NCBI RefSeq assembly: GCF_900142475.1
Contig: NZ_FRAY01000003.1
Coordinates: 248,001-312,000, forward strand
Reading direction: 5' to 3'
Source: Fibrobacter sp. UWH4
GTDB lineage: Bacteria; Fibrobacterota; Fibrobacteria; Fibrobacterales; Fibrobacteraceae
Length of the DNA: 64,000 bases
This document shows, in pieces, positions 20,273 to 49,872 of this stretch. Numbering within the stretch: the first letter of the stretch is position 1; each line of letters starts with the position of its first letter. A program made the position numbers and the translations under genes. Under the pieces are notes generated by a model. The model searched no databases. It worked only from the letters and a program-made list of their open reading frames with translations, and was not told where the DNA came from.

Positions 20273-21513
20273 TTAGGCGGGAAGAACAGGTAGGCGATTG
20301 CGATTGCTGCAATCACGCCGGCTGCATCTGCGATCAAGGCGCATGTAACGGCGTGGCGAGTCTTCTTTACTCCTACGGAACCGAAGTACACCGCGATAAT
20401 GTAGAAGGTCGTATCGGCGGCTCCCTGGAACATGCAGCTCAGGCGACCTGCAAAGCTGTCTGGACCGAGAGTCTTCATGGCGTCGATCATCATGCCGCGG
20501 GCACCGCTACCGCTCAAGGGTTTCATGATGGCAGTGGGGAGGGCTGGCACGATATCGTTGCCCACTCCGCAGAGTCCAAGAATCCAGGAAACGCCGTTCA
20601 GCAACAAGTCCATGGCACCGCTTGCACGGAAAACGGCGACACCCACGAGGATGGCGACCAGGTTCGGAATGATCATCACGGCGGTATGGAAGCCATCTTT
20701 CGCTCCTTCGACAAAGGCTTCGTAGGCCTGCACCTTCTTGTATACGGCGAGTCCGAGGAAGGCTACGATGATGCCGAACAGGGCGATGCCGCTAATCAAG
20801 AGACTGGTCGTGCCGATGGCTTCTGCCGTCAGGTGGCTGAAGTAGACCATGATAGAAATAACGCAAGCCGAAAGTCCGCCGAGCCAGGCGACCGTTACTG
20901 GGTCCTTGAGCTTGACCTTCTGGAAAAAGCTGAGTGCGACTATGCCGGCGATAGTGCTGAAGAACGTAGAAAGCAGGAGCGGAAGGAAGACGTCGCTCGG
21001 ATTGGAGGCGCCCATCTGCGCGCGGTAGGTCATGATGCTTACTGGAATCAGCGTAAGGCCGCTTGCGTTCAGCACCAGGAACATAATTTGCGAATTGCTC
21101 GCGACGGTCTTGTCTTCGTTCGGATTGATTTCCTGTAGTTGCTTCATGGCCTGGAGGCCCATCGGGGTGGCGGCGTTGTCGAGACCGAGCATGTTGGCGC
21201 TGATGTTCATGAGCATGGTTCCGATAACCGGGTGGTTCTTCGGTATTTCAGGGAACAGGCGGCTAAACAGCGGCGAGACGATTTTGGCGAGAATCTGGAC
21301 TGCGCCTGCCTTTTCGCCGATTTTCATAATGCCGAGCCAAAGCGAAAGGATGCCGGTAAGCCTTAAGGCAATTTCGAATGCCGTTTTCGACATGTCGAAT
21401 GCACCGAGGATTGCCTTGTTGAAAATGCCGGAATCGCCGAAGGCGATCCATTGAATCATGCAGGCGACAAATGCGCCAAAGAAAAATACGAGCCAAATGA
21501 TATTTAAGACCAT
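20269..21513 (-). CDS. SpmA-SpmB-like fused nucleoside-recognition (Gate) membrane protein
   Basis: About 414 residues from ATG 21513 (MVLNIIWLVFFFGAF); the longer frame from 21540 adds nine atypical residues. Two homologous halves are visible: an SpmA-like half (about 1-200; MLMNISANMLGLDNAATPMGLQAMKQLQE) and an SpmB-like half (about 245-414; IVPALPTAIMKPLSGSGARGMMID), with about ten membrane helices. In Bacillus the two are separate spore maturation proteins; in non-sporing bacteria fused forms are common and their substrate is unknown. Convergent with the antiporter; a strong terminator and a repeat cluster lie between them. Confidence 0.85.
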   Translation of the reverse strand: MVLNIIWLVFFFGAFVACMIQWIAFGDSGIFNKAILGAFDMSKTAFEIALRLTGILSLWLGIMKIGEKAGAVQILAKIVSPLFSRLFPEIPKNHPVIGTMLMNISANMLGLDNAATPMGLQAMKQLQEINPNEDKTVASNSQIMFLVLNASGLTLIPVSIMTYRAQMGASNPSDVFLPLLLSTFFSTIAGIVALSFFQKVKLKDPVTVAWLGGLSACVISIMVYFSHLTAEAIGTTSLLISGIALFGIIVAFLGLAVYKKVQAYEAFVEGAKDGFHTAVMIIPNLVAILVGVAVFRASGAMDLLLNGVSWILGLCGVGNDIVPALPTAIMKPLSGSGARGMMIDAMKTLGPDSFAGRLSCMFQGAADTTFYIIAVYFGSVGVKKTRHAVTCALIADAAGVIAAIAIAYLFFPPN

Positions 21514-34860: not shown

Positions 34861-35850
34861 ATGATAAACTTTAAGAGTCCAGAAATTTCTGATTGGGCTG
34901 CGGCGGCAAAGGCCGTGGCCGATTCGGGTTATACCGGCAGTGACGCGAGCTTCGCGAATATCTATCTACTGCGCCAAAAGTACGGAACGCAAATCGCTTT
35001 GCAAGAGGGGTTCCTCTTCCGCTATTACAACGGGCAAGGGAGCCGCAGGGGCTATGCCTTTCCGCTAGGAGAGGGCGATGCGGAGGCGGCGCTCGCACTT
35101 ATTGTCGAAGATGCCCGCGAATCGGGCCGTCCGCTGGAATTCTGCCTGGTAGACGAGCCTCGGGCACAGATTTTGCGGGAGTATTTTAAGACAGTCGGGG
35201 CGAACGGCGCAAAATCCGCCCTTCATTTTACAGAAAATCGCGGCGACAGCGACTACATCTATTCTGCCGAAAGTCTTGCCACTTTGACCGGAAACCTGTA
35301 CAAGAAAAAGCGCAACCACGTTTCCCGATTTAACAGGACTTATTCGGACTACGAAATCCGCCCGCTTACGCCGGAGAATTTTGCCGACGCGCTCATGGTC
35401 GAAAAGAGTTGGCTCAATATCGAAACCTTGGGAGAATCCAGCAATACTGATTGCGAATGCCGCGAAGCCGCCTGGGCAGAACGCTCCGAAGATGAAAAAT
35501 CCAAATTCTCGGAATACTGCGCCATCCGCGAGGCTCTTGAACACTTTGATGCTCTCGGCATGAAAGGGGCGGTGCTCTATATTGGAGGAATTCCGGCCGG
35601 CATGACGATGGCTTCAGAAATTTTGCCCGGCGTCTGGGACACGCATTTTGAAAAGGTCATTGATGAATACGCCGTGAATGGCGGATATGCGATCATAAAC
35701 AAACTATTTGCCGAAAAACTCTGGGCTACGGGAGCTCATTTGATCAACCGCGAAGAGGATGTCAACATCGAAGGACTCCGCAAGGCCAAACTCTCGTACT
35801 ACCCGCAAACTATATTAGACAAGTCCCACATCGTCATTCTGGAGGGGTGA
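34861..35850 (+). CDS. DUF2156 protein (LPG-synthase C-terminal-like)
   Basis: 329 residues, intact copy. The domain resembles the GNAT-like C-terminal part of phosphatidylglycerol lysyltransferase: FANIYLLRQKYGTQIALQEGF, FTENRGDSDYIYSAESLATLTG, KKKRNHVSRFNRTYSDYE and GGYAIINKLFAEKLWATGAHLINRE. It has no membrane domain, so it is a cytoplasmic acyl/aminoacyl-transferase-like protein of unknown substrate. The last residues (HIVILEG, TGA) lie in a copy of a dispersed palindromic repeat. The YkgJ-like gene starts 33 nt later, and the same pair is duplicated upstream of tgt. Confidence 0.85.
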   Translation: MINFKSPEISDWAAAAKAVADSGYTGSDASFANIYLLRQKYGTQIALQEGFLFRYYNGQGSRRGYAFPLGEGDAEAALALIVEDARESGRPLEFCLVDEPRAQILREYFKTVGANGAKSALHFTENRGDSDYIYSAESLATLTGNLYKKKRNHVSRFNRTYSDYEIRPLTPENFADALMVEKSWLNIETLGESSNTDCECREAAWAERSEDEKSKFSEYCAIREALEHFDALGMKGAVLYIGGIPAGMTMASEILPGVWDTHFEKVIDEYAVNGGYAIINKLFAEKLWATGAHLINREEDVNIEGLRKAKLSYYPQTILDKSHIVILEG

Positions 35851-35868
35851 AACCCCGATAGAATCCAT
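35833..35868. repeat. TCATTCTGGAG...GAATCCA palindromic repeat overlapping a stop codon
   Basis: GTCATTCTGGAGGGG-TGAAA-CCCCGATAGAATCCATA. The GGGG/CCCC stem contains the TGA stop of the DUF2156 gene, and the repeat supplies its last codons. Confidence 0.75.
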
Positions 35869-35883
35869 AACATTTAAAGACAA

Positions 35884-36360
35884 ATGCTATCCTCCATCCT
35901 CTCCAAAAGTCAATGCGCCGCCTGCAAGTTCTGCTGCTCTTTCCGCAGGCAGAGCCTCTGGGAAACCCCGCTGTTCCCGCCCGAAGTCGTTGAAAAACTC
36001 AGCAAGCCCAACGAATACGGCGTGGTGGGGGAGTTCCGCGACGGTCAAGTTATTCTTGGCGGCTACAAAACCGCCGACCCCGAAGAAGAAGTTCCCTGCA
36101 CCTTCCTGGATCCGCAAAAAGGTTGCATCCTGAAGCCCGAAGACAAGCCATTCGACTGTTCCATCTGGCCGCTCCGCATTATGGACAAAGATGGTGAACT
36201 CGTCATCGCCCTCACGCCCACCTGCCCAAGCATCGGCGCGGTTCCAAGCCAAGTTCTCACCGAACTCGTAAAATCTGGTCTCGGCGATAAAATTTTTGAA
36301 TACGCCAAGACGCATCCGGAAATCATCAAGGAATATCGTGAAGGCTTTCCGATAATTTAA
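35884..36360 (+). CDS. YkgJ-like zinc/iron-chelating Cys-cluster protein
   Basis: 158 residues, intact copy. The N-terminal cluster CAACKFCC (about 11-18) and later cysteines in CTFLDPQKGCILKPEDKPFDCSIWPL fit the YkgJ/UPF0153 family, whose members are predicted to bind a metal through eight or so cysteines. Biochemical function is not established. It lies 33 nt after the DUF2156 gene, and the pairing is repeated in the decayed module upstream of tgt, suggesting the two proteins work together. Confidence 0.8.
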   Translation: MLSSILSKSQCAACKFCCSFRRQSLWETPLFPPEVVEKLSKPNEYGVVGEFRDGQVILGGYKTADPEEEVPCTFLDPQKGCILKPEDKPFDCSIWPLRIMDKDGELVIALTPTCPSIGAVPSQVLTELVKSGLGDKIFEYAKTHPEIIKEYREGFPII

Positions 36361-36381
36361 TCCGATTGCGTTTTCACGCCT

Positions 36382-36966
36382 TTAATGCGAACCAAGTGAC
36401 AAGGCAATCTTCTTGCACTTGGCAATTTCTTTGGGCGTAAGGCCATTTTGCTTATGGGTTCCGCCTTTTTGAATCACACCTGCAATCTTGAATCCACTCC
36501 AGCAAAGGATTTCCTTGAGGGCGCGAACGGTGCCGGCCGACTGCTTGAAAATCAGGTTGAATGGCCACTGGGTAGTGCATGTCGTCACAATGACAGCCTT
36601 CTTTCCCTTTAACAGTGGAATCGGGTAATCACGCTCGCTGTGGTCCATCATGCCGTAAACCCAGCGGTCGAAAAGCATTTTGAGTTGCCCGGTCATGTTG
36701 CCCCAATAGCAAGGCGAACCGACCACTAGACCGTCGCATTCTTGCACCAGGCGCAGAATCCGCTTCGCATCGTCCTCCGGCATCACGCAATCGTGAGCGC
36801 TACGGCATTTCATGCAGCCAATACACGGACGAAATTCCAATTTGCAGACATCAATGATTGTTACCTCGGTGCCTTTTTCAAACAGGGTATCACCTATGAT
36901 ATTTAACATCTGGCTGATGTTTCCGTCTTTGCGCGGGCTCGCATTCAAAATGACCACTTTTCTCAT
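36382..36966 (-). CDS. Flavodoxin-like NAD(P)H-dependent FMN reductase
   Basis: 194 residues from ATG 36966 (MRKVVILNASPRKDGNIS, the FMN-phosphate loop). CKLEFRPCIGCMKCRSAHDC carries the CxxCxxC-type motif of iron-sulfur flavoprotein-like reductases, followed by DGLVVGSPCYWGNMTGQLK (flavin ring contact). Probably reduces FMN or quinone/nitro compounds. Convergent with the YkgJ-like gene. Short pieces of both its 3' end and its 5' leader recur, joined together, in the remnant at 38518-38795. Confidence 0.85.
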   Translation of the reverse strand: MRKVVILNASPRKDGNISQMLNIIGDTLFEKGTEVTIIDVCKLEFRPCIGCMKCRSAHDCVMPEDDAKRILRLVQECDGLVVGSPCYWGNMTGQLKMLFDRWVYGMMDHSERDYPIPLLKGKKAVIVTTCTTQWPFNLIFKQSAGTVRALKEILCWSGFKIAGVIQKGGTHKQNGLTPKEIAKCKKIALSLGSH

Positions 36967-37141
36967 TGTGTCTCCATCCAAAAGAAACGTTCTTCTATAA
37001 AACTTTCTCCTGTTAAACACCCCAGAATCTAGAAAATGTTACTTTTGAACCAAGACGTCGTTTTTTGTCCGAATTTGGCGATTTTGTATTTCGTGAAAAT
37101 TTTGACTCAATTATAAGTTATATTTAGATTGAAAATAACTG

Positions 37142-38353
37142 ATGGAGCCCGTCATGGTTTTGAACAGAAAGATAAATACTCGCGTCTCTAGCAAGAACGT
37201 CATTGCGAACCCCGTAGGGGTGAAGCAATCCATTGCCGTTCTTTCCTTCACCCTTCTCCTTGCCGCCTGCGGTGGAGACAGCAGTTCGGGCGCCAAGGAC
37301 CCTGAACTAGCTGAAGGAAACGATACGGACCTGATGGTTGAAACCTTCGACGACCTGCTGGTTTGCAGCAGCAAACGCGAAGGTACGACAGCCTACGTGA
37401 AGGACGAAAAGAACGCCTACGTGTGCGTAGCCGGCGACTGGACCTTGGACGGCGAGGATCCCGCCGAAAAGAGCTCTTCGTCGAAAAAAACTTCTTCGAG
37501 CAGCGGCAAGGCGAAGTCTTCATCGAGTTCGATAAAGTTGGAACTTTCGTCTTCTGTTGATGATTCTCAGTTGTCCAGCAGTGAAAAGTCGAGTAGTAGC
37601 GAGACAAGTGTGTATAGTAGCAGTTCTACAGACAAGATAAAATGTCAAGAGCTTTTAGAAAGTGAAACGAACTGGAACTGGGATGTGCCGAAGGAATGTC
37701 GCTTCAACCCTGATATTGATTACGGCACGATGACCGATGAACGCGATGGCAAGGTTTACAAAACAGTGAAAATCGGTGATCAGATTTGGATGGCCGAGAA
37801 CTTGAACTACGCCGACAGTACAAAGACTCCGAGCCTGAAGGGTAAATCTTGGTGCTTCAACGATAGGGCTGCCAACTGCGACGTGGTCGGTCACCTTTAC
37901 ACCTGGGCGGCGGCAATAGACTCGGTGAAACTCGCAACCGATGCGGACAACCCGCAGGACTGTGGCTTCGGCAAAACCTGCGACCTCGCTTCGGCAGGCT
38001 CAGTGACCTTGGTTCAGGGCATCTGCCCCGAGGGTTGGCACCTGCCAAGTTATGACGAATGGAAAACTCTGTTCGATGCCGTCGGCGGTCAAGATACGGC
38101 AGGCAAGGTTCTCAAGTCGCAGACGGGTTGGCCTAGCAATGGCCACGAAACGGATGCCTTCGGTTTTTCCGCCTTGCCTGTTGGCGGCAAGAACGATGTT
38201 GGCTACTTCGGCGTCGGCACGTACTTCTGGAGTTCTACAGAGGTCAATAGCGGCCACGTGTACGACGTGTACTTGTACTACGGCCTCGGCAATGCGGGCC
38301 TGGCCATCGAGAATAAGATCCTCGGGTTCTCTGTTCGTTGTCTCCGGGACTAG
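37142..38353 (+). CDS. FISUMP-domain lipoprotein with repeat-derived signal peptide
   Basis: 403 residues as called. Lipobox LLAAC (Cys41), Ser-rich linker (about 110-170, repeated SSSS with Lys), then a FISUMP domain (about 190-403) with VKIGDQIWMAENLNYAD, YTWAAAID, CPEGWHLPSYDEWKTL and terminal FSVRCLRD. Function of this Fibrobacter-expanded domain is unknown; surface display is likely. Residues 18-30 (VIANPVGVKQSI) are encoded by a dispersed TCATTGCGA...GAAGCAATCC repeat. A GTG at 37220 inside the repeat would give MKQSIAVLSFTLLLAAC, a textbook lipoprotein signal, and may be the true start. Confidence 0.85.
   Translation: MEPVMVLNRKINTRVSSKNVIANPVGVKQSIAVLSFTLLLAACGGDSSSGAKDPELAEGNDTDLMVETFDDLLVCSSKREGTTAYVKDEKNAYVCVAGDWTLDGEDPAEKSSSSKKTSSSSGKAKSSSSSIKLELSSSVDDSQLSSSEKSSSSETSVYSSSSTDKIKCQELLESETNWNWDVPKECRFNPDIDYGTMTDERDGKVYKTVKIGDQIWMAENLNYADSTKTPSLKGKSWCFNDRAANCDVVGHLYTWAAAIDSVKLATDADNPQDCGFGKTCDLASAGSVTLVQGICPEGWHLPSYDEWKTLFDAVGGQDTAGKVLKSQTGWPSNGHETDAFGFSALPVGGKNDVGYFGVGTYFWSSTEVNSGHVYDVYLYYGLGNAGLAIENKILGFSVRCLRD
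37196..37232. repeat. TCATTGCGA...GAAGCAATCC repeat inside a coding region
   Basis: AACGTCATTGCGA, hairpin ACCCC-GTA-GGGGT, then GAAGCAATCCAT. The flanking blocks are identical to the intergenic copy at 42999-43034, while the middle differs. It lies in the signal-peptide region of the FISUMP lipoprotein. Confidence 0.75.
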
Positions 38354-38371
38354 CGGTGATGCGAACCCTGC

Positions 38372-38405
38372 ACGGAAATGCTAGCATTTCCGTATTGCTT
38401 TTTTT
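38372..38405 (+). terminator. Terminator of the FISUMP lipoprotein gene
   Basis: ACGGAAATGC-TA-GCATTTCCGT, then TTGCTTTTTTT. Confidence 0.85.
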
Positions 38406-38517
38406 CTCCATGGCACCGCCTAAACGATATCGGCCAATTTATATGGGGTAGGGGTGATGCAATCTTGAAAGAATTACCTCGATTTTTGGGGATTACATCA
38501 AAGCCGAGGGTTGTTCT

Positions 38518-38795
38518 AGACGACTCGTCATCGCGCTCACGCCCACCTGCCCGAGCATCGGCGCGGTTCCAAGTCAGGCCCTCGTGGATCTCGTGCAGGA
38601 CGGCCTCGGCGATAAATTTTTTGAATACGCCAAGACGCATCCGTACATTATCAAGGAATATCGCGAAGGATTCCCGATAATTCTAATGCGAACCAAGTGA
38701 CAAGGCAATTTTCTTGCACTTGTGTCTCCATCCAAAAGAAACGTTCTTCTATAAAACTTTCCCTTGTTAAACACCCCAGAATCTAGAAAATGTCA
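38518..38795 (+). pseudogene. Third remnant of the YkgJ/flavodoxin segment
   Basis: 38520-38683 matches the last third of the YkgJ gene (LVIALTPTCPSIGAVPSQ...EYREGFPII). It continues with the 3' end of the flavodoxin gene (AATGCGAACCAAGTGACAAGG), then jumps at CTTGTG to that gene's upstream leader (TCCATCCAAAAGAAACG ... CACCCCAGAATCTAG), so about 545 bp of the flavodoxin gene are missing. This shows that a block from 36.2 to 37.05 kb was copied here and then deleted internally. No reading frame is functional. The region 38406-38517 before it holds nothing recognisable. Confidence 0.85.
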
Positions 38796-39438
38796 CTCAT
38801 GGGGAAATCTTTCAAAAAATATGGGGAAAAGCTTTATATGAAAGAAAACGCCGAGATTCCGCCGTCTATTTGTTACTTCAAACTGAACACCGCCACCGAC
38901 AAACATAAAAAGTAAATTGGCCTGCAGACCAACACTTTCCATAAATCCCACTTCTCTCATATCCCGACCGCCATCCTTTACCCACCATTCAAATAAATGA
39001 TTTTCAAATGCGGCTAGGCCGATCATGTTGTTCCCCCAAAATGCATAATACGATGTACCCGAAGAAAGCCATAATGATCCGAAAACAATGTAGTAGGCAA
39101 CAGATTTTTCCTCTTTGTAGCTTTCATTGGCTTGCAATATTAGATTTGCCGTGCCTGCAATCGCAAAAACACTTAAGCTACCATAAGATGTCTCATCAGC
39201 ATCTAACCTTAAATCTAGCCGTGGGGAATATTCAAGATATAAGCCTATGTTTTTAAACGGCTGAAATCCATTAAAAAAATCCTTCGATTGCAATTCTGTC
39301 TAGAGAGGAATATCCGAAACCTCCCAAAATAAGGGCGGGGTCAATTTGTCTTTTCCTATCAACTTCGGGGACTACGCCATCTTCGTTCGCAAATGCGATG
39401 GTGCATATTAAAAGTACGATGGCGATGAATTTGTTCAT
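38793..39438 (-). pseudogene. Secreted protein gene split by a T7-run frameshift
   Basis: ATG 39436-39438 opens a signal peptide (MNKFIAIVLLICTIAFANE) and continues to DRIAIEGFF before a TAA right after seven T (39273-39279 on the plus strand as A7). With one T fewer the frame continues into NGFQPFKNIGLYLEYSPRL and stays open to 38793, giving about 217 residues. The rest has hydrophobic, Gly-rich strands (FGSLWLSSGTSYYAFWGNN, LLFMFVGGGVQFEV) like a small barrel or membrane-associated protein. It may be a pseudogene, a phase-variable gene or a sequencing error. AT-rich. Directly abuts the remnant at 38518-38795. Confidence 0.75.
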
Positions 39439-39450
39439 GAATGTAATTAT

Positions 39451-39480
39451 AAAAAACTCCCGGGCATCGCTGTCCGGGAG
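39451..39480 (-). terminator. dnaJ operon terminator
   Basis: CTCCCGG/CCGGGAG stem followed on the minus strand by six T. Confidence 0.85.
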
Positions 39481-39510
39481 AATTTCTGAGATCCTTCGAC
39501 TTCGCCCTAT

Positions 39511-39531
39511 GGGCTCCGCTCAGGATGACAC
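39511..39531 (-). repeat. Inverted copy of the GTGTCATCCTGAGC repeat
   Basis: The reverse complement, GTGTCATCCTGAGCGGAGCC, is identical to the start of the 133-bp repeats at 43105 and 49740. Confidence 0.75.
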
Positions 39532-39542
39532 GCCGATGGCAT

Positions 39543-39574
39543 GCCTAACCACTAATCACTAACCACTGTTTACT
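39543..39574. repeat. AACCACTAATCACT-type repeat overlapping the dnaJ stop
   Basis: CCTAACCACTAATCACT then AACCACTGTTTACTT; the TAA of dnaJ (39570-39572, minus) lies inside the last unit. Confidence 0.65.
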
Positions 39575-40715
39575 TGAACAGATTCTTCATCTTCTCGAGG
39601 AAGGATTCTTCCTGTGCGGTTTCCTTGTCGTGCCTGAGTTCCGCGAGTTTCTGGTAGAGTTCCTTCTCTTCACGGCTCAAGTCCTTCGGGATTTCCACGC
39701 CGATGTTCACGTAGAGGCTTCCGCGGTCGCCGCGCTTGTTCAGCGGGTACAGGCCCTGTTCGCGCAGGCGCAAGATGCTCCCGGCCTGAGTGCCGGCCGC
39801 AATCTTGATCTGCACTTCGGCACCGTCCAGCGTCGGGATGCGCTGCGTTCCGCCAAGGACCAGCTTGTGGACCGGCACCTTGATTTCGCAGTGTAAATCG
39901 TCGCCTTCGCGGGTGTAGAAGTCGTCGGGCTTTTCGGCAATCACCGCCAGCAAGTCGCCGCAGGCACCGCCGCGAGGCCCGCAGTTGCCTTCGCCACGCA
40001 GGTTCAGGTACTGGCCCTCGGCAACGCCCGCCGGAATCTTGATGGAGATTTCTTCCGTTTCCTGCACACGGCCCTCGCCGTGGCAATGCGGGCACGGTTT
40101 CGCGATGACTTCGCCCATGCCGTTACAGGTGGGGCAGGCGCTTTCGGTAATCATCTGGAAGAATCCGCCCGTAGAACGGCGAACACGGCCCGTTCCGTGG
40201 CAGGTGTCGCAGGTCTTGATGTCCTGGCCGCCCTTGCCGTTACATTCCGTACACGGCGTGTAGCGTTTCAGGCGAACCTTCTTGGTGCAGCCCTCGAAGA
40301 TTTCCTTGTAGCTGAGCGCCACCTTGATCTGCAAGTCGTTCCCGCGCGGAGGCCCGGCCTTGCGTGAGCTTCTGCGGCCACCGCCGCCAAAGCCACCGAA
40401 TCCGCCACCGAAAATATCGCCAAAGTTCGCGAAGATATCCTCGAAACTGAATCCCTGGCCGCCGAATCCGCCGCCACCAAAACCGCCACCGGGGGCGTTA
40501 AAGCCGAACTGGTCATACTGCTTACGCTTCTCGGGGTTGCTGAGCACATCGTAGGCCTCGGCAGCCTCCTTGAACTTCTCTTCGGCTTCCTTGTCGCCCG
40601 GGTTCTTGTCCGGGTGGTACTTGATGGCAAGTTTCTTGTAGGCGTGCTTGATCTCGTCAGGACTCGCGTCCTTGCCGACGCCTAGAACTTCGTAATAATC
40701 TCTTTTTTCAGCCAT
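39570..40715 (-). CDS. dnaJ: Chaperone DnaJ
   Basis: 381 residues, type I J-protein. J domain with HPD ([10 protein letters not shown], about 32-41), a long Gly/Phe-rich linker ([18 protein letters not shown]), four CxxCxGxG zinc repeats ([32 protein letters not shown]) and the C-terminal substrate domain. It delivers clients to DnaK and stimulates its ATPase. Lies downstream of dnaK in the same direction but with a terminator-like hairpin and repeats in the 173-bp gap, so expression may be partly uncoupled. Confidence 0.97.
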
Positions 40716-40735
40716 AATATGCCTTCGGCATTAAA

Positions 40736-40768
40736 GTGGTTAGTAAACAGTGGTTAAGCCGTAAACAG
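40736..40768. repeat. AACCACT-type repeat upstream of dnaJ (inverted orientation)
   Basis: AGTGGTTAGTAAACAGTGG then TTAAGCCGTAAACAGG, the complement of the TGTTTACTAACCACT unit. Confidence 0.6.
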
Positions 40769-40787
40769 GAGTTGTTCATCTACAACA

Positions 40788-40820
40788 AAAGGATTGCCTC
40801 AATTTTAAGGCGAATCCTTT
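40788..40820 (-). terminator. Hairpin between dnaK and dnaJ
   Basis: AAAGGATT+GCCT pairs with AGGC+GAATCCTTT (one bulge); TTTT follows on the minus strand. May reduce read-through into dnaJ. Confidence 0.65.
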
Positions 40821-40825
40821 CGTAT

Positions 40826-40891
40826 AATTAGTGGTTTTTGTCAATGACTAAAACTAATCACTAATCACCAACCACTAACCACTTCCTATTA
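40826..40891. repeat. AACCACTAATCACC-type repeat running into the dnaK stop
   Basis: A left arm ATTAGTGGTT is followed by ACTAATCACTAATCACC and AACCACTAACCACTTCC; the dnaK TAA (40889-40891) ends the cluster. Confidence 0.65.
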
Positions 40892-42790
40892 GTCCACCAC
40901 TTCCGCGTCGACGACTTCCGGACCGTCGCCCTTCTTGTCGTTCTTCGGCTGTTCAGAAGCACCCGGCTGCGGACCCGGCTGGGCCTGGTTTGCACCGGCG
41001 GCCTGGGCCATGGAGCTGATCATGCCCTGGAGCTTGTCCATAGCGGCCTTGATCTCCTCCTTGGTGCCGTTGTCCTTCTTGGCCTTGATGTCGTCGATAG
41101 CAGCCTGCAGCTGGCTCTTGGTGTCGGCCGGGAGCTTGTCGCCAAATTCCTTCAACTGACCTTCGGCCTGGTATGCCATCTGTTCGGCCTGGTTCCTGAT
41201 GTCCACCAGTTCACGCTGTTCCTTGTCCTTGGCAGCGTTGGCTTCGGCATCCTTCACCATCTTGTTGATTTCGTCCTCGGAAAGGCCGCTGGAAGAAGTA
41301 ATCTTGATGGACTGTTCCTTACCGGTTTCCTTGTCCTTAGCAGACACATGCACAATGCCGTTTGCGTCGATATCGAAGGTCACTTCGATCTGCGGCACGC
41401 CACGGGGCTTCTTCGGAAGGTCGGTCAGGTCGAACTTGCCGAGCGTACGGTTGTCGCGGGCAAATTCGCGTTCGCCCTGCAGCACGTGAATCGTCACGGC
41501 CGGCTGGTTGTCTTCGGCGGTAGAGAACACCTGGCTCTTCTTGGTCGGAATCGTGGTGTTACGGTCGATGAGCTTGGTCATCACGCCACCGAGAGTTTCG
41601 ATACCCAAAGAAAGCGGGGTCACGTCGAGGAGCAACACGTCCTTCACGGAGGAGTCGCCGCTAAGCACGGCACCCTGGACGGCGGCACCGATAGCCACCA
41701 CTTCGTCCGGGTTCACAGTCTTGTTCGGTTCCTTGCCGAAGAACTTCTTCACGGCTTCCTGAACGGCCGGAATACGGGTAGAACCACCGACCAGGATCAC
41801 TTCGTCGATTTCGCTCAGGGAGAGGCCGGAGTCGGCGATAGCCTTGCGGCAGGGTTCCATGGAGCGTTCCACCAGGTGGGCGGTCAGCTGGTCAAACTTT
41901 GCACGGCTGAGCGTGAGGTCCAAATGTTTCGGGCCCGAAGCGTCGGCAGTGATGAAGGGGAGGTTGATGTTCGTGGAAGTCGTGGCAGAAAGGTCGATCT
42001 TGGCCTTTTCCGCGGCGTCCTTCAAACGCTGCAGGGCCATCTTGTCCTTCTTCAGGTCGATGCCCGGATTGTCCTTCTTGAATTCGTCGTTGATCCAGTC
42101 GATAATCACTTCGTCGAAGTTGTCACCGCCGAGCATCGTATCGCCGTTGGTGGCCTTCACGCTGAACATGCCGTCGTCGATTTCCAGGATGGAGATATCG
42201 AACGTACCGCCACCGAGGTCATACACGGCGACCTTTTCGCTCTTCTTGGAGTCAAGACCGTAGGCAAGTGCGGCAGCCGTCGGTTCGTTCACGATACGCA
42301 GCACTTCGAGGCCAGCAATCTTGCCGGCGTCCTTCGTGGCCTGACGCTGGGAGTCGTTAAAGTAGGCGGGGACCGTAATCACGGCCTGCGTCACCGGCTG
42401 GCCCAGGTAGTCTTCGGCAATCTTCTTCATGGTCTGGAGAACCATGGCCGAAATCTCGGGAGGAGCGAACTGCTTGTCGTCCACCTGCACGCGGACCGGG
42501 TCGGAACCCGAGCCCACCAGCTTGTAGGGCATGTTCTTTTCGGCAGCGGAGCATTCGCCGGCCGTACGGCCCATGAAACGCTTGATGGAGTAAATCGTCT
42601 TTTCGGGGTTGGTGATAGCCTGGCGCTTTGCCACGTGGCCCACCAGACGTTCGCCGTTCTTGCCGAAAGCGACAATGGACGGGGTGGTGCGGAAACCTTC
42701 CGCGTTAGCGATGACGACCGGCTTGCCGCCTTCCATCACGGACACGCAGCTGTTGGTCGTTCCCAAGTCAATACCGATAATCTTGCTCAT
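40889..42790 (-). CDS. dnaK: Chaperone DnaK (Hsp70)
   Basis: 633 residues from ATG 42790 ([20 protein letters not shown]), preceded by AGGAG; the upstream extension to 42832 is rejected. ATPase signatures [14 protein letters not shown] and [14 protein letters not shown], substrate domain, lid, and a Gln/Gly-rich tail ending in the usual EVVDAEVVD. Core heat-shock chaperone with DnaJ. No GrpE gene and no CIRCE element (TTAGCACTC dyad) is seen nearby. Confidence 0.98.
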
Positions 42791-43000
42791 AATGAGTCTC
42801 CTATTTTTAAATTCTTGCCGCCCGCGAATCAATCTGAACGGGGCGATTTTTTACGCCCATACATAAGCAAAACCCGTGCCAAATGCTAACAACTGGCAAA
42901 AAACGGCCATTTCGTTTCGTTCTGAAACAAGAAAAGCCCCTAAACCGGGGCAAAAAAGGCGTGTTTCATTATGGAACGGCGCTTTGGAAGAATGTGAAAA
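42791..43000. other. dnaK upstream region
   Basis: Part of the 576-bp gap 42791-43366. A small hairpin GCCCC-TAAACC-GGGGC (42936-42951) followed on the minus strand by TTTT sits about 145 nt before dnaK; no gene seen. The rest of the gap is filled by dispersed repeats listed separately. Confidence 0.5.
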
Positions 43001-43036
43001 CGTCATTGCGAGGAACGACGCGACGAAGCAATCCAT
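43001..43036. repeat. TCATTGCGA...GAAGCAATCC repeat, intergenic copy
   Basis: CGTCATTGCGAGGAACGACG then CGACGAAGCAATCCAT. Same flanking blocks as the copy inside the FISUMP gene at 37196. Confidence 0.75.
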
Positions 43037-43104
43037 AAAAAAAAGTGGGGGAGGCATCCCCCTGCTTCAGCCTTGCCCTATTGACATGCCCGTGGAAACC
43101 TCGG

Positions 43105-43237
43105 GTGTCATCCTGAGCGGAGCCTGTCATTCTGGAGCGCAGCGATAGAATCCAGGCGTAGTCGATATACGAAACTTGGCTACTTGTAGCCTTAGTTGAG
43201 TTAGGTTCGTAGGAGCAGGATCTAGGGCAAGTCTTCC
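43105..43237. repeat. 133-bp repeat, copy 1
   Basis: Identical over 133 bp to 49740-49872. Starts GTGTCATCCTGAGCGGAGCC, includes GTCATTCTGGAGCGCAGC / GATAGAATCCA, the hairpin GGCTAC-TT-GTAGCC (43179-43192) and ends TAGGGCAAGTCTTCC. CTTGCCCT just outside the left end pairs with AGGGCAAG near the right end. Flanked on both sides by GC-rich hairpins that resemble but do not match those at copy 2. Confidence 0.9.
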
Positions 43238-43366
43238 GTCACCCCCTCTCCTAGGGGGACACCCCCTAACACCCCTTCCAGTGAACGTTGCTTGTAAACC
43301 AACGTAAAATAAGTTATATTGCCAAAAAATTTTTTCTTTAAATTGATTTAAAATAAGGATTCTTTC

Positions 43367-49739: not shown

Positions 49740-49872
49740 GTGTCATCCTGAGCGGAGCCTGTCATTCTGGAGCGCAGCGATAGAATCCAGGCGTAGTCGA
49801 TATACGAAACTTGGCTACTTGTAGCCTTAGTTGAGTTAGGTTCGTAGGAGCAGGATCTAGGGCAAGTCTTCC
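49740..49872. repeat. 133-bp repeat, copy 2
   Basis: Base-for-base identical to 43105-43237 and in the same orientation. It lies in the 744-bp gene-poor stretch 49605-50348, preceded by the hairpin GGGGGAAGGCTCCCCC. Copies 1 and 2 bracket 6.5 kb of accessory genes. Confidence 0.9.

Follow-up and report, generated by a model that had tools for sequence, protein, structure and literature searches.

How a short palindromic repeat, dispersed through a bacterial genome, comes to lie in frame within the signal peptide of a lipoprotein is the question raised by this locus of Fibrobacter sp. UWH4: the repeat may have been inserted into an existing signal peptide, or it may have supplied the gene with a new translation start. 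The locus lies in a 64,000-nt stretch of DNA (hereafter, the window), where the open reading frame 37142-38353 encodes a FISUMP protein (PF09603, E=2.4e-29). The most likely start of the lipoprotein gene (37154-38353, + strand) is ATG 37154, another in-frame ATG being found at 37142, and a GGAG Shine-Dalgarno-like motif (37144-37147, + strand) stands 6 nt before ATG 37154. Read from this codon, the N-terminus is MVLNRKINTRVSSKN-VIANPVGVKQSI-AVLSFTLLLAAC-GGDSSSG and has, by inspection, the features of an SPII lipoprotein, namely a basic n-region, a hydrophobic core and a lipobox Cys (NRKINTRVSSKN...KQS-IAVLSFTLLLAAC). The core and the lipobox LLAAC occupy 37233-37270 (+ strand), with the Cys codon (37268-37270) as residue 39. 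The repeat begins 44 nt after ATG 37154, reads N-VIANPVGVKQS-I and stops before the hydrophobic core IAVLSFTLLLAAC, in agreement with the initial annotation, which had described an in-frame repeat encoding a peptide just ahead of the core. The repeat-encoded residues precede the lipobox Cys39, and from lipoprotein biology they would be expected to be lost on cleavage by signal peptidase II. As to the surroundings of the gene, parts of its upstream region (36198-36421 and 36966-37043) recur downstream of it at 38523-38797, where the stretch between them is absent (direct repeats D2, D9 and D17), and the FISUMP gene therefore sits between tandem-duplication remnants.

The element itself is a 35-bp CGTC-type palindromic repeat (CGTCATTGCGAACCCCGTAGGGGTGAAGCAATCCA; 37198-37232, + strand), whose bounds, set by its CGTC head and CCA tail, refine the 37196-37232 given initially. 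CGTC (37198-37201) is followed by an outer stem ATTGC/GCAAT (37202-37206/37225-37229), an internal loop GA/GAA, an inner stem ACCCC/GGGGT (37209-37213/37217-37221) closed by the loop GTA, and the CCA tail; folded in isolation as RNA, the repeat reaches -13.2 kcal/mol (z -2.75). A second copy of the same family, noted before at 42999-43034 and bounded here at 43001-43035 (+ strand), is intergenic, upstream of dnaK, and is weaker, its minimum-energy RNA fold differing from the family fold. A loose pattern finds three matches in the window against 0.17 expected, the one at 20297 probably being due to chance. Seen in the window by itself, the match covers few letters, and one may ask whether two short stretches are simply similar by chance. 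This is extremely improbable and already contradicted: exact GTCATTGCGA-N4-30-GAAGCAATCC matches number 33 in the genome of origin (3.7 Mb) and 0 for the reversed control, and across the phylum 71 of the 168 genomes, representing 8 of 41 genera, contain the family, whereas no genome contains a control match. GTCATTGCGA is present in all 33 copies, the element measures 27-37 bp between its fixed arms, and both the central hairpin sequence and the length of the inner stem vary between copies. The arms of the inner hairpin covary: among 26 distinct copies from this genome, 87 of 110 mirrored positions pair, compared with 71.9 +/- 3.8 after the right halves had been shuffled among equally long copies (none of 5000 shuffles reached 87). 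A few close inverted pairs stand among the repeat matches of the phylum scan, head-to-head dimers being the predominant arrangement of CGTC-tagged REPs.

In terms of known elements, the repeat resembles the CGTC-tagged REPs of Di Nocera, De Gregorio and Rocco (2013; PMC3733652) in its CGTC head, the AT in the first two stem positions and the CCA tail, and also in being multi-copy, dispersed, both intergenic and intragenic, and without a dedicated transposase, as those REPs are reported to be (PMC3733652). CGTC-1 to -4, however, have continuous stems of 8-9 bp and loops of 4-5 nt (PMC3733652), whereas the Fibrobacter repeat combines a 5-bp outer stem, the GA/GAA internal loop, a 5-bp inner stem and a 3-nt loop with a freely varying inner hairpin. 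Judged by these sequence features, the Fibrobacter repeat is a bulged variant of the known CGTC-tagged REPs, a type which, according to the same authors, may have escaped detection (PMC3733652). The text of PMC3733652 does not mention Fibrobacter, and the named contigs bearing the bulged hairpin variant all belong to Fibrobacter or Fibrobacterales. An Rfam search of window positions 36900-43300 gave no match; a literature search with the DNA words of the repeat brought up no paper on it among the 40 listed, and a search for Fibrobacter together with REP returned nothing relevant. With regard to mobilization, a search of this genome for Y1 transposases (Y1_Tnp) found none, and across 80 genomes of the genus copy number bears no relation to the presence of Y1_Tnp (p=0.61); a RAYT/Y1 transposase was rejected as the mover on these grounds.

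The age and origin of the insertion can be approached through related genomes. A 151-nt N-terminal block containing the repeat occurs once in each of five other Fibrobacter species (G061, G016, G002, G082 and G035) at 92-99% identity, the G082 copy having one change inside a repeat arm. In all five relatives, genes of the tgt-dufA-ykgJ-NADPH reductase/dnaJ neighbourhood adjoin the block on the same contig (dufA and ykgJ being our working labels for window open reading frames 34861-35850 and 35884-36360), while in most of 20 other genomes examined no FISUMP gene was found between the tgt/dnaJ-region neighbours. A FISUMP gene adjoins dnaJ in G028 and lies between the NADPH reductase gene and dnaJ in G083. 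These two genes (gene 1 in G083) have the leader and start of the repeat carriers (ACAAGGCGAAACTCCACAGGTTTTAACCGATGGAGGCCGTCATGGCT) but no repeat of the 37198-37232 type. About 40 nt after its ATG, the G028 gene has instead a GTCATCCTGGAGC..GATAGGATCC palindrome (GTCATCCTGGAGCCACGTAGTGGCGATAGGATCC), which belongs to a second palindromic family and encodes SSWSHVVAIGS; G083 gene 1 holds what looks, in sequence, like a decayed form of it. In G063, where a homologue has a related leader, neither repeat is present, and relative to it the genes with the 37198-37232-type repeat are longer by 54 nt, the repeat among them; as this gap exceeds the 35-bp repeat, no clean single insertion with target duplication is seen. 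Separately, a second gene of G083 (L243) has a signal peptide, MKAYKRTPKSVIATLKSFQGLVTLFAILLAAC, whose GCGTCATTGCTACCC segment may go back to a 37198-37232-type repeat that has decayed.

Comparing orthologues with and without the insert, as the initial annotation had proposed, thus yields genes of both kinds: a homologue with none in G063, a different repeat in G028 and the same repeat in five others. The insertion into a signal peptide that it had envisaged gains support from these homologous leaders lacking the repeat (G063) or carrying another one (G028 and G083 gene 1), and from the dispersal of the element in the genome. The converse would be that an ordinary segment of the signal peptide later became a dispersed repeat. 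The segment is common to six species and hence not recent; nevertheless, such an origin is very improbable and is already contradicted by the distribution, as the repeat extends to further genera and families within the phylum and to unrelated genes, its other genomic copies share the repeat alone and not the flanks, and genes with the same leader exist without it.

Where translation starts bears directly on whether the repeat is coding. It had been suggested that GTG 37220 (37220-37222, + strand), at the right edge of the repeat, would give an ideal lipoprotein start, in which case the repeat would lie in the 5' untranslated region and supply the start (MKQSIAVLSFTLLLAAC). The GTG does exist, is in frame and would give a compact lipoprotein signal; NH2-terminal REPs in annotated open reading frames are often located 5' of the true start, and misannotated starts have been warned of (PMC3733652). 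In addition, codon changes among the six species, all non-synonymous between ATG 37154 and the end of the repeat (0 synonymous, 6 non-synonymous), contrast with 11 synonymous and 4 non-synonymous changes in the 37233-37270 region of the core and lipobox, so that no substitution signature of translation is seen between the ATG and the repeat end. Against this, an AGGG directly abuts GTG 37220 with no spacer, leaving the codon without a spaced Shine-Dalgarno motif, and the GTG would be buried in the -13.2 kcal/mol hairpin. Conservation of the leader, GGAG(G) and ATG upstream of the repeat site extends from the carriers to genes that lack the repeat, GGAG or GGAGG standing at the same place in G061, G035, G016, G002, G082, G028, G083 gene 1 and G063, and the frame through the repeat is kept in all six species. 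In the same line, a second FISUMP gene of this genome (L016) has GGAGG, 6 nt and a GTG, followed by five codons (MKIFT), its repeat and the hydrophobic core (MKIFTN-VIASPVRAKQSI-FGRLVFALVFAAFTAC). A start at GTG 37220 is unlikely on this evidence, and the idea that the repeat supplied a new start finds no support; from the conserved leader, the unspaced GTG within its hairpin and the like order in L016, the start is placed upstream and the repeat most likely lies inside the coding sequence.

We therefore favor, with a probability of roughly 0.77, the reading that a REP entered the stretch coding for the n-region, that translation from ATG 37154 would read through it and that it would be tolerated since the peptide is cut off. 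According to this proposal, a dispersed, non-autonomous CGTC-tagged REP-type repeat would have entered the n-region-coding stretch of a lipoprotein gene before the separation of, or locus exchange among, at least six present-day species. Translation from ATG 37154 would run through the repeat and insert some 12 residues, one of them a lysine (VIANPVGVKQSI), after the charged n-region and ahead of the hydrophobic core; signal peptidase II would then remove the peptide ahead of Cys39 and leave the mature protein unchanged. Tolerance would follow from the copy being stop-free in the frame used, from the flexibility of n-regions in length and sequence, and from removal of the peptide ahead of Cys39.

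Alternatively, the repeat might have been retained for a useful function, with the mRNA hairpin or the lysine-bearing peptide tuning translation or export of the lipoprotein. The isolated hairpin is indeed stable, and the 79 nt from the ATG to the repeat end have changed little among the six species, with 6 distinct codon changes as opposed to 15 in the following 59 nt; paralogue exchange, however, could also account for this low divergence. Moreover, the 136-nt start region is no more structured than its shuffles (z 0.33), the changes inside the repeat are all non-synonymous, and other species carry another repeat or none, making a selected role rather unlikely compared with the tolerated insertion that we propose.

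A strict structural scan ((GTC)AT-nnn ... nnn'-AT-CC) of 75 distinct FISUMP lipoproteins located seven repeats in 8,775 nt of signal-peptide regions, four of which represent the single insertion shared at the 37198-37232 site, leaving four independent events; nine more lie in Ser-rich linkers, all in the VI..S frame, and none was detected in 45,000 nt of FISUMP domains. If position were irrelevant, the chance of finding all four independent matches in the signal-peptide region and none of them in the domain would be about 7e-4, a figure that serves as a guide and not as a survey given that the sample was gathered around the 37198-37232 finding. A relaxed search of FISUMP open reading frames, outside this strict count, shows repeats in other frames too, with SLRGxxxTAAIS in signal peptides and RHCEDCKDEAIS in a linker. 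These observations suggest, at somewhat less than even odds, that the n-regions and Ser-rich linkers of Fibrobacter surface lipoproteins may have been repeatedly rebuilt from interchangeable palindromic repeats, unrelated families filling one site of orthologous genes in different species, with the frame sorted by what each site tolerates; if so, signal peptides would accept such insertions readily, since the encoded peptide is cut off. A paralogue of L016 (L190; G000:C3:326000-330500, - strand) has a second palindromic repeat in its signal-peptide segment together with an early in-frame TAA, and is probably a pseudogene.

Other palindromic families also occur in the window, their counts covering the examined loci. 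A second family (GTCATTCTGGAG..GATAGAATCC) at 35833-35866 overlaps the end of open reading frame 34861-35850, providing its last codons and TGA stop; a direct repeat of 144 nt contains further copies of this family, at 43126-43153 and 49761-49788. A third (GTCATCCTGAG..GAAGGATC) lies at 39490-39529 (- strand), just downstream of dnaJ.

The repeat is not restricted to lipoproteins: of the strict genomic copies, 33 in all, about 14 are located in, or at the edge of, plausible open reading frames. Pfam-supported hosts of the in-frame repeat include NAD-dependent DNA ligase (LigA), porphobilinogen deaminase (HemC), a GSCFA protein, YidC, HrpB, an Eco57I-type enzyme, ScpA (in its C-terminal tail), a lipid A acyltransferase-like protein and two FISUMP lipoproteins, together with MutY and a methyltransferase, where it lies at the N-terminal edge and the start is uncertain. 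The putative signal peptide of an ExbB-like protein, also Pfam-supported, contains the repeat (MYKHVIASVAKQSRTALFATVLFLSASSAFA), and TruB of F. succinogenes RUG10650 carries VIANPEGVKQS. In HemC, the site is without insert in G010, G003, G086 and G102 (TLCSPSDEL..LARV) and filled by TLSQLRHCEGNSPKQSIDAILAHV in this genome, G061, G091 and G030, by another variant in G035, and by a GTCATCCTGAGC..GAAGGATC repeat in G005; the net gain of 8 residues against a core repeat of 32 nt again shows no clean target duplication. Both hemC (L279-L304) and the GSCFA gene (L249-L278) have one internal site that is empty in some species and occupied by different repeat families in others. GSCFA and LigA follow the pattern of HemC, with sites with and without inserts or with differing repeats across species. 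The LigA linker before the KIDG motif (L120-L148, from about 29 Fibrobacter species; compare L012) is different in nearly every one of them; this variability leaves the bounds of insertion unreadable, and LigA was rejected as a clean empty site on that account. Several of the linker variants look, from their sequence, like translated dispersed repeats, and the linker amounts to a hot spot within an essential gene.

Palindromic repeats lying in frame within genes are familiar chiefly from Rickettsia, and they have often been ascribed to relaxed selection in parasites. The likeness to Rickettsia palindromic elements noted in the initial annotation applies to the way of working and not to size or host. 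As far as Ogata et al. (2000) are represented in PMC2229807 and PMC3733652, those elements are in-frame palindromes in protein genes, mostly tolerated, of 105-146 bp and in an obligate intracellular genus; the Fibrobacter repeat, in turn, measures 27-37 bp and resides in rumen bacteria, with signal peptides among its sites. Here too, in-frame palindromes occupy conserved genes whose homologues lack the insert (HemC and GSCFA, and also LigA), and RPE-4 and RPE-6 are themselves CGTC-type repeats (PMC3733652). One precedent was found for a repeat within a predicted signal peptide, YPAL/RU-2 in Yersinia YPO1552 (Delihas, 2007; PMC2759123). In that case a 168-bp element is fused in what was proposed to be a new exported protein, whereas the 35-bp element of Fibrobacter is placed within the n-region in a lipoprotein family that is already established, and other species carry a different repeat very near to that point. 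What is new is the genus, the bulged, freely varying hairpin and the finding that, at orthologous loci, almost one and the same point of the n-region is occupied by different repeats.

The frequency of these repeats in a rumen genus with genomes of 2-5 Mb speaks against relaxed selection as the only reason for their presence within genes. Signal peptides offer a simple explanation of tolerance at one kind of site, where the inserted residues should be cut off. For annotators, VIANPVGVKQS-like peptides in Fibrobacter proteins can be regarded as repeat-derived, and the ligA, hemC and GSCFA sites, with their differing repeats, permit comparative tests of repeat movement and of protein tolerance.
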